Source: Actinomycetota bacterium
GTDB taxonomy: Bacteria; Actinomycetota; Thermoleophilia; Solirubrobacterales; Solirubrobacteraceae
Direction of reading: 5' to 3'
DNA: 64,000 nt
NCBI GenBank assembly: GCA_009699245.1
Contig: WLOQ01000001.1
Location: 124,001-188,000 of the forward strand
The position numbers were made by a program, and so were the translations under genes. Positions 2,134 to 6,395 of the stretch are shown in pieces; positions within the stretch are counted from its first letter, which is position 1; each line of letters opens with the position of its first letter. Under the pieces are notes generated by a model, which was not told the DNA's origin, ran no database searches, and saw only the letters and a list, made by a program, of their open reading frames with translations.

Positions 2134-2667
2134 GTGAATGAGCTGAGCCAGACGACCGGGATCGTCGCCGTCGCGGCAGCCGTCGTCGCGCTGCTCGCAC
2201 TGGTGCTCGCGCTGGTGCTGTGGCGGAGCGTGCGGCGTCTGCGCGCGGACCAGCGCGCCGTCCTCGGAGACGAGCGTCGCGACCTCGTCGCGCACGCTGC
2301 CGAGCTCGACCGCCAGTTCCGCGCGCTGCACGAGTGGGTCATCGATGTCGCGACGCGCATCCAGCGCCGCACCGACCGCGTCGAGACCCGCCTGAATCAG
2401 ACCCTCGCGCACACCGCGGTCGTGCGCTACGACGCCTACAACGAGATGACGGGACACCAGTCCGTCTCGATCGCACTGCTCGACGCGGAGCGGCGCGGGA
2501 TCGTCCTTTCGTCGATCCACCACCGCGACCAGGCGCGCCTCTACATCAAGCAGGTCGAGCACGGGCAGGGCAGCATTCCCTTGACTCCCGAGGAAGAGGA
2601 GGCCGTGCGCGCCGCCCTTGCGCGCGAGGTCCCCGACCGCGCGTTCGAAGCTGGGGAGCAGCCATGA
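2134..2667 (+). CDS. DUF4446 family membrane-anchored protein
   Basis: 177-residue protein with one N-terminal transmembrane segment (about 8-30), a charged coiled-coil stretch (about 31-90) and a conserved C-terminal part with VVRYDAYNEMTGHQSVSIALLD, the hallmark of DUF4446. The biochemical role of the family is unknown. The start is GTG 2134. A hexamer TATGCT at 2119-2124 ends 9 nt before it, so the mRNA is probably leaderless. Its stop overlaps the pheA start by 4 bp (ATGA), so the two genes are probably translationally coupled. Confidence 0.85.
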   Translation: MNELSQTTGIVAVAAAVVALLALVLALVLWRSVRRLRADQRAVLGDERRDLVAHAAELDRQFRALHEWVIDVATRIQRRTDRVETRLNQTLAHTAVVRYDAYNEMTGHQSVSIALLDAERRGIVLSSIHHRDQARLYIKQVEHGQGSIPLTPEEEEAVRAALAREVPDRAFEAGEQP

Positions 2668-3533
2668 GAATCGCGTTCCTCGGCCCCGAGGGAACCTTCA
2701 GCCAGGAGGCGCTGCGGACCTCCATCGCGCTCGCCGGCCCCGGCGCGGAGCAGGCGGAGCTCGTTCCGGTGGCGACCGTCCATGCCGTCGTCCAGGCCAT
2801 CGCATCCGGTGACGCCGACCGGGCCGTGGTCCCGATCGAGAACGCGCTCGAGGGCTCCGTGAACGAGGCGATCGACGCGCTCCTCCACGACGCCCCCGGC
2901 GTGCGGATCATCGGCGAGACGGTGCTCCCCGTGCGGCACTGCCTGATCGCCGCGCCGGGCGTCGCGCTCGACGAGGTCGCCGTCGTGCTCTCGCACCCGC
3001 AGGCGCTCGCGCAGTGCGCGCGCTGGCTGCGCGACGCGCTTCCGGCGGCGGCCCAGCGCGCCGCCAGCTCCACGGCCGAGGCCGTCCGCCTAGCCGTCGG
3101 CGCCACCGAGCCCACAGCGGCCCTCGGCACGCGACTCGCCGCAGACCTCTACGGCGGTGCGGTCCTCGTCGACGACCTCGGCGACACCGCGACGAACGCC
3201 ACCCGCTTCCTCTGGCTCGCCCCCGCGGGGGCCCCGGCCAGCGCGGGCGACGGGTCCCTGTGGAAGACGTCGGTGGTCTTCGGCGGCGACGGGGACGGGC
3301 GTCCCGGGTGGCTCGTGCGCTGCCTCTCGGAGTTCGCTTTCCGCGGCGTGAACCTCACGCGCATCGAGTCGCGCCCCGCCCGGCGGCGCCTTGGGCACTA
3401 CGTCTTCCTCGTCGACCTCGAGGGGCGCGCCGACGTCCCGGGCCCGGCGGCCGACGCGGTCGCCGCGCTCGACGATCACTGCAGCGAGGTGCGCGTCCTC
3501 GGCGCGTACCCCCGGGCTGCGCTGCCCGCGTAG
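2664..3533 (+). CDS. pheA: Prephenate dehydratase
   Basis: Monofunctional prephenate dehydratase (289 aa), converting prephenate to phenylpyruvate in phenylalanine synthesis. The catalytic part (about 1-180) shows FLGPEGTFSQEA at the N-terminus, VVPIENALEGSVN and the TNATRFLWL signature containing the catalytic Thr-Arg-Phe. A regulatory ACT domain follows (about 195-280) with GVNLTRIESRP, the usual phenylalanine-binding motif, so feedback inhibition by Phe is expected. No chorismate mutase domain is fused. It is coupled to the upstream DUF4446 gene by a 4-bp overlap and is followed 6 bp later by a strong hairpin terminator. Confidence 0.95.
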   Translation: MRIAFLGPEGTFSQEALRTSIALAGPGAEQAELVPVATVHAVVQAIASGDADRAVVPIENALEGSVNEAIDALLHDAPGVRIIGETVLPVRHCLIAAPGVALDEVAVVLSHPQALAQCARWLRDALPAAAQRAASSTAEAVRLAVGATEPTAALGTRLAADLYGGAVLVDDLGDTATNATRFLWLAPAGAPASAGDGSLWKTSVVFGGDGDGRPGWLVRCLSEFAFRGVNLTRIESRPARRRLGHYVFLVDLEGRADVPGPAADAVAALDDHCSEVRVLGAYPRAALPA

Positions 3534-3538
3534 AACGA

Positions 3539-3568
3539 CGATGGGCGCCACCGTGGTGGCGCCCATCG
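3539..3568. terminator. Strong inverted repeat, probable bidirectional terminator downstream of pheA
   Basis: Perfect 14-bp inverted repeat (arms 3539-3552 and 3555-3568) starting 6 bp after the pheA stop. It would end pheA transcription and also any minus-strand transcript from the pheA-gyrA gap. There is no long T-tract on either side, as is common in GC-rich actinobacteria. Confidence 0.7.
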
Positions 3569-3765
3569 CGTACAGCAGCTGGAACTGCTCGATCGCTCGT
3601 CCTGCGCCGGGGGGACTGGTTCCGGCTGAGGCGATCGACGGTGTCCCGGTCGGATTCCGCTAGGGAGTCCAGCCAACCGCGCTAGCGGCCGGTCACCTCC
3701 AGGGTCCCACAAGAACTGTCACTGGAACTGCAGATATGGACCACCTCCTTCCTCTGGTGAGGCGG
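3569..3765 (-). ncRNA. Candidate small RNA or tiny-ORF transcript between pheA and gyrA
   Basis: The gap between the two hairpins is not explained by either flanking gene. On the minus strand it shows, in order, an extended -10-like TGGTACATT (hexamer at 3766-3771), then AGGAAGGAGG, an almost perfect Shine-Dalgarno, then a 20-codon frame (3744-3682). A 7-bp stem follows (3682-3688 with 3657-3663, 18-nt loop), and the run ends in the 14-bp hairpin at 3539-3568. This promoter-to-terminator order suggests an independent short transcript of about 200-225 nt. I do not recognise the RNA family. It could instead be a conserved leader or a decayed gene. Confidence 0.35.
3682..3744 (-). CDS. Possible 20-residue peptide in the pheA-gyrA gap
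   Basis: Short minus-strand frame GTG to TAG encoding a 20-residue Ser/Cys-rich peptide (SSSDSS in the middle, cysteines at positions 5 and 12, ending LEVTGR). A very strong purine-rich ribosome site (AGGAAGGAGG) lies directly against the GTG. That is too close for normal initiation from that codon, so initiation might instead be at the ATC three codons in, 8 nt away, or at a different frame. Coding status rests only on the ribosome site and is uncertain. No family is recognised. Confidence 0.2.
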   Translation of the reverse strand: MVHICSSSDSSCGTLEVTGR

Positions 3766-3796
3766 AATGTACCAGCGGCCCGGACGGACAGGCGCA

Positions 3797-3822
3797 GGGT
3801 GGGCGCACCGTGGCGCCCACCC
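3797..3822 (-). terminator. Hairpin terminator after gyrA
   Basis: Perfect 10-bp inverted repeat (arms 3797-3806 and 3813-3822, 6-nt loop) immediately beyond the gyrA stop codon at 3825. Its core GGGCGC-ACCGTG-GCGCCC closely resembles the hairpin at 3539-3568 on the other side of the gap. No U-tract follows. Confidence 0.65.
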
Positions 3823-3824
3823 GC

Positions 3825-6395
<2,571 letters not shown>

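Follow-up and report, generated by a model that had tools for sequence, protein, structure and literature searches.

The window analysed here is a 64,000-nucleotide stretch of DNA from an Actinomycetota bacterium of the family Solirubrobacteraceae (assembly GCA_009699245.1, contig WLOQ01000001.1, positions 124,001 to 188,000). Its minus strand encodes dnaA, dnaN, recF, gyrB, and gyrA, and its plus strand encodes pheA, all named from the gene sequences. The spacer (3534-3824) between pheA (prephenate dehydratase; 2664-3533, plus strand) and gyrA (3825-6395, minus strand) contains the subject of this analysis, a predicted small RNA of about 220 nt encoded on the minus strand (3539-3762), with gyrA as its upstream neighbor and pheA convergent to it. 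This RNA has in its 5' part an element complementary to the 3' tail of 16S rRNA, contains a conserved micro-open reading frame (micro-ORF), and, as judged with covariance models, is distantly homologous to Ms_IGR-5 (RF02471), an orphan family in Rfam. All features of the RNA described below are on the minus strand.

The ends of the RNA were inferred from a promoter and a terminator. An extended -10 promoter-like element, TGGTACATT, is located at 3766-3774, and in relatives a similar element of the form TG-N-T(A/T)...T precedes the RNA by 7-14 nt. At the other end, a 14-bp hairpin (3539-3568) is the predicted terminator, and many relatives have a GC-rich hairpin resembling it directly 3' of the RNA. 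An additional hairpin at 3797-3822, immediately after the gyrA stop codon and upstream of the RNA promoter, is the probable terminator of gyrA. The -10-like element and the far hairpin had been pointed out in an earlier sequence-only reading of the window, which also reported that the two flanking hairpins share a core, and all of these are present, the shared core being GTGGCGCCCA.

The RNA region was matched by blastn in many relatives. Of the 61 relatives searched with a covariance model (Solirubrobacterales, Thermoleophilia), 51 gave a match, including 35 of the 39 with near-complete genomes. The sequence-only reading would have been contradicted by a lack of conservation in sister genera, and the RNA proved to be conserved there. 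A covariance model (R1) built from Solirubrobacterales only matched the window at 3758-3604 (E 9e-30 genome-wide), and the Rfam model RF02471, at a lax threshold, aligned end to end with positions 3758-3584. The score of this second match, 21.4 bits, did not reach the Rfam cut-off of 45 bits, and the best relative from the same family scored 37.8 bits. R1 recovered all 28 of the loci that RF02471 had brought in from other families and orders, each at the same place, and independent searches with the two models, covering 198 genomes from the phylum, agreed on the place of the RNA in 44 of them (counted by eye). The covariance models therefore identify the window RNA as a distant homologue of Ms_IGR-5; because the score was below the cut-off, homology is claimed rather than membership of RF02471 as Rfam now draws the family. 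Ms_IGR-5 is expressed as a small RNA in M. smegmatis, where it is called IGR-5 or ncMSMEG15794c, and in Streptomyces, where the S. lividans copy is SLIV_16488 (PMC8079986, PMC10454040). No function for Ms_IGR-5 was reported in the openly licensed papers found.

The 5' part of the RNA contains a 16-nt element (3738-3753), AGGAAGGAGGTGGTCC, that is complementary to the 3' tail of 16S rRNA and constitutes an extended Shine-Dalgarno (SD) sequence. This is the near-perfect SD sequence of the sequence-only reading, in which the resemblance of its opposite strand to the anti-SD end of 16S rRNA had already been seen. Its consensus, AGAAAGGAGGUG(G/A)UCC, pairs with the entire 16S tail, and positions 6-21 of the model (AGAAAGGAGGUGGUCC) are the complement of the tail (GGAUCACCUCCUUUCU) with one G-U pair. 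Variation was analyzed in an alignment of 93 matches from the phylum that was fitted to the model (A3), the loci of which had been gathered by blastn, RF02471, or R1 and not by a pattern on the 16S element. All eight of the positions facing a C or A of the 16S tail were invariant, while seven of the eight facing a U or G varied, almost only by A to G or C to U changes, so that only wobble variation was seen and 1484 of the 1487 cells in the element (99.8%) were able to pair with the tail. A Fisher test of the difference in invariance between the two classes of positions gave p 0.0014 (0.0022 for the 11 bulge positions alone). This pattern of substitution shows that the 5' element is held under a constraint to pair with 16S rRNA. 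There was only one site in the window with three or fewer mismatches to the complement of the tail (0.43 expected), and the exact core, AAGGAGGTGRTCC, occurred once in the entire 1.95-Mb assembly. Of the 198 genomes from the phylum, 86 contained the exact 16S end, GGATCACCTCCTTTCT, among them two from the same family as the window (G024 and G033) and several with strong RF02471 hits.

The micro-ORF (3682-3735) extends from an inferred AUC start codon to a UAG stop codon (3684-3682) and encodes (M)CSSSDSSCGTLEVTGR. A Ser/Cys-rich frame of 20 codons had been proposed in the sequence-only reading; the frame is there, with 17 codons and a stop from the AUC at 3735, and 20 codons would be reached only with in-frame codons further upstream. 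A micro-ORF of 12-18 codons was conserved across the phylum. The fourth codon counted from an invariant GAGGUG was a stop codon in 183 of the 184 distinct RNAs (180 on the first pass; the higher number was reached by choosing the right match where one locus gave two), and the one remaining RNA had a one-codon insertion before UAG. The stop codons in the 183 RNAs were UAG (148), UGA (27), and UAA (8); UGG was never seen at this position in them, though it would be tolerated by the helix that contains the stop codon (P4, below). The frame was open back to the SD sequence in 182 of the 183, as compared with 59 and 39 for the other two frames, and a cognate or near-cognate start codon was found 6-13 nt after GGAGG in all 183, as compared with 36 and 23. 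These start codons were UUG (72), CUG (47), AUC (23), AUG (19), GUG (9), ACG (9), AUU (3), and AUA (1). No in-frame stop codons were observed in the variable loop, where 9.9 were expected. Examples of the predicted peptides are LSDSSCGTLEVTGR in Solirubrobacterales, MCDSRTREVAAG in the Streptomyces-like RNAs, and LIASRTCEVAAR in the mycobacteria-like RNAs.

Five helices were named in an alignment of 38 Solirubrobacterales sequences (A2), in which 95.7% of the cells were paired and 10 of the 30 pairs had double changes, a result reached by none of 500 shuffles. In A3, 93.8% of the cells were paired and 21 of the 30 pairs had double changes, and covariation was 0.352, as compared with 0.119 in shuffles and 0.044 or less when slid. 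These comparisons show covariation of four helices. P1 is formed by CCAG (3754-3757) and CUGG (3699-3702), its pairs varying as CG/AU/GC/UA; P3 by GGUGACCGG (3689-3697) and CCGGGACACC (3640-3649); and P4 by CCGCUAG (3682-3688), which contains the UAG stop codon, and CUAGCGG (3657-3663). P5 is a hairpin (3606-3626) with the loop GUCC (3616-3613), in which all five pairs covaried. P4 is the 7-bp stem with an 18-nt loop of the sequence-only reading (CCGCTAG/CTAGCGG, 3688-3682/3663-3657), and the compensatory changes for which that reading had suggested looking were found among the A3 sequences.

The fifth helix, P2, would join GGUCC (3738-3742) to the GGACC of the segment GGGACC (3703-3708). It was nearly invariant, and its outer pair was broken in 18 of 92 sequences, so P2 was dropped as a required helix. 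The same segment can also pair with the P5 loop (GGACN with NGUCC), and this pairing was found in 93.3% of cells, with the outer pair double-changed in 16 sequences. Because the outer pair of P2 breaks while that of the pseudoknot covaries, the two were kept as alternatives, with the P5-loop pseudoknot as the candidate structure. Both compete with pairing to 16S rRNA. A further pairing within the RNA, between the SD element and the P5 loop, was also considered and dropped, as the U in the loop varied without a matching change (read by eye).

Evidence from other species bears on what such an RNA may do. MS_IGR-5 is among the small RNAs with significant ribosome reads (Ribo-seq) in M. abscessus and M. 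smegmatis (PMC4974804). In S. aureus, extended SD helices go with weak, non-AUG start codons, which give approximately 10% (up to 30%) of the expression from AUG, and in E. coli the protein bS21 would hinder an extended SD helix (PMC13009471). No gene for bS21 was found in 21 relatives of the window genome, and 6 of 14 control genomes gave a match. The ribosome reads, the S. aureus precedent, and the failure to find bS21 favor an RNA that is engaged by ribosomes and weakly translated. The near-complete match to the 16S tail, followed by a tiny frame that mostly lacks AUG, suggests that the RNA is probably a regulator acting through ribosome binding and weak translation. It is thus rather more probable than otherwise that this is a stand-alone structured small RNA, distantly homologous to Ms_IGR-5, that works by engaging ribosomes, and a ribosome-engaged regulatory micro-mRNA is probably the best description of it. 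The sequence-only reading had offered a ribosome-binding regulatory RNA and a micro-peptide gene as separate options, and the 16S-complementary 5' end and conserved micro-ORF support the two together.

A mechanism can be proposed tentatively. The long SD helix would capture 30S subunits, and the poor start codon would make commitment to 70S ribosomes slow and sensitive to the conditions of initiation, such as IF3 and initiator tRNA. Translation up to the stop codon inside P4 would unfold P3 and P4, and the small RNA would in this way occupy and report free initiation capacity. It is possible, at somewhat less than even chances, that the RNA is a phylum-wide regulator of this type, in which 30S subunits are parked through a helix with the whole tail, initiation is sensed at the weak start codon, and translation of the micro-ORF is coupled to refolding of the 3' pseudoknot domain. 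Being translated seems to be more important for this RNA than the precise peptide made.

Several observations weigh against a ribosome-engaged regulatory micro-mRNA. The third codon positions of the micro-ORF were not the most variable. No 16S rRNA match was found in the window's own genome, a metagenome-assembled genome (MAG) estimated to be 99.4% complete, which is a common artefact of MAGs. Non-coding RNAs can co-sediment with ribosomes, as the Ribo-seq study itself warns (PMC4974804). The sequences are related to each other, so the shuffles and Fisher tests overstate their independence and the p values are optimistic. Finally, the fold of the single sequence (3766-3569) was no better than that of shuffles (z-score -0.45); when this sequence is taken by itself, neither its fold nor the number of 16S-tail-like sites is remarkable.

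An unlikely alternative, though one to be taken seriously, is a plain micro-protein gene, in which the RNA serves only as the message for a functional peptide of 12-18 residues and the strong SD sequence offsets the weak start codon. This would account for the conservation of frame, start, and stop, and residue similarity was highest in the frame of the micro-ORF (z 18.6, as compared with 11.7 and 0.6 in the other frames); the Ser codons AGT and TCT were also exchanged at codon 2. However, the most widely shared residues (GTLEVxGR) fall in RNA helices, the part encoded by the loop is poorly conserved between classes, and a large structured 3' domain is conserved after the stop codon. Since this frame, for all its top similarity, shows no excess of variation at third codon positions, the start, frame, and stop seem to be better conserved than the peptide sequence in the aligned RNAs.

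Less likely still is a pure decoy for the 16S tail, which would mask the anti-SD sequence of the 30S subunit and favor leaderless mRNAs, with translation only incidental. Complementarity to the entire tail, exceeding that of a normal SD sequence, speaks for a decoy, but the conserved start, frame, and stop would be left unexplained.

The genomic context of the RNA bears on the remaining possibilities. In many Solirubrobacterales loci gyrA adjoins the RNA, mostly in the same direction, and pheA is nearby. Some loci from the genus to which the window belongs (L010, L011, and L013-L015) have gyrA convergent to the RNA, and the RNA/gyrA cassette appears to be inverted in that genus as compared with most Solirubrobacterales loci. 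The scanned flanking ORFs matched an aminotransferase and nitrobindin at a mycobacteria-like locus, and a 2OG-Fe oxygenase and an abhydrolase at a Streptomyces-like locus; in the two other lineages checked, the nearest downstream gene was not co-directional with the RNA. The covariance-model search found one copy per genome in relatives, with one exception. Two neighboring matches were present in each of G043 (L041 region, C1:347492-347747) and L094 (3149-3399), suggesting tandem duplication. Records titled as a Chlamydiae and an Acidobacteriota bacterium (L110 and L087) contained copies most like those of Actinomycetota, and the titles are probably wrong; L110 also carries gyrA and pheA.

It is very improbable that this is Ms1 or a 6S-like RNA that binds RNA polymerase. 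Such an identity would suit an actinobacterial RNA having a hairpin with an internal bulge, in a genome where 6S RNA (RF00013) gave no match up to E 10, and Ms1 was the identity first assumed for RF02471. It was rejected because the flanking ORFs scanned at one mycobacteria-like and one Streptomyces-like locus are not HAD hydrolases and the literature places the loci apart: Ms1 is one gene from 6C RNA (PMC6582537), Ms_IGR-5 is 0.8 Mb from 6C RNA in S. lividans (PMC8079986), and IGR-5 (ncMSMEG15794c) and Ms1 are listed as separate transcripts in M. smegmatis (PMC10454040). The HAD hydrolase neighborhood of Ms1 was found neither beside the window RNA, whose neighbors are gyrA and pheA, nor among the scanned ORFs at L053 and L059. 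Equally improbable is a leader or attenuator of a neighboring gene, which the sequence-only reading had listed; the stop codon of a short ORF within a helix is reminiscent of leader-peptide attenuators, but pheA is convergent, the promoter-like element and terminator are the RNA's own, the terminator intervenes, and the other genomic contexts differ. Chance features of an intergenic spacer, with which the fold z-score agrees, can be dismissed because the matches in relatives, the conserved frame, and the covarying stems extend across the phylum.

The ends, fold, 16S complementarity, and micro-ORF can now be defined across several classes, so that an orphan RNA yields a hypothesis, open to testing, on how translation initiation is controlled in the phylum to which the tuberculosis bacteria and antibiotic producers belong. 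An RNA family classed as non-coding may be weakly coding. The 16S-tail element and the conserved micro-ORF may be new for RNAs of the Ms_IGR-5 type, as neither is mentioned in the openly licensed papers found on Ms_IGR-5, an earlier description elsewhere being possible.

Comparison with known systems places the window RNA closest to Ms_IGR-5, which it resembles along the modelled length in its 5' element, helices, and micro-ORF position, and from which it differs in its gene neighborhood (gyrA/pheA) and its Rfam score below the cut-off. Ms1 is likewise a stand-alone structured small RNA of actinobacteria, with a different locus and neighbors. The consensus of CC2171 (RF01867), a Caulobacter small RNA, has at its start GAAAGGAGGUGAUCCAGUG, which is likewise complementary to the 16S tail and is followed 7 nt later, at an SD-like spacing, by GUG. 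The rest of the CC2171 model does not align with the window RNA (21.9 bits, as compared with a cut-off of 75). CC2171 may represent an independent case of this type of RNA in the Alphaproteobacteria. The S. aureus genes infC, cvfC1, and ccpN also combine a long SD-anti-SD helix with a weak start codon (PMC13009471). In those cases the extended SD sequence drives an ordinary protein gene, whereas in the window it precedes a micro-ORF that forms part of a small RNA with a fold of its own.
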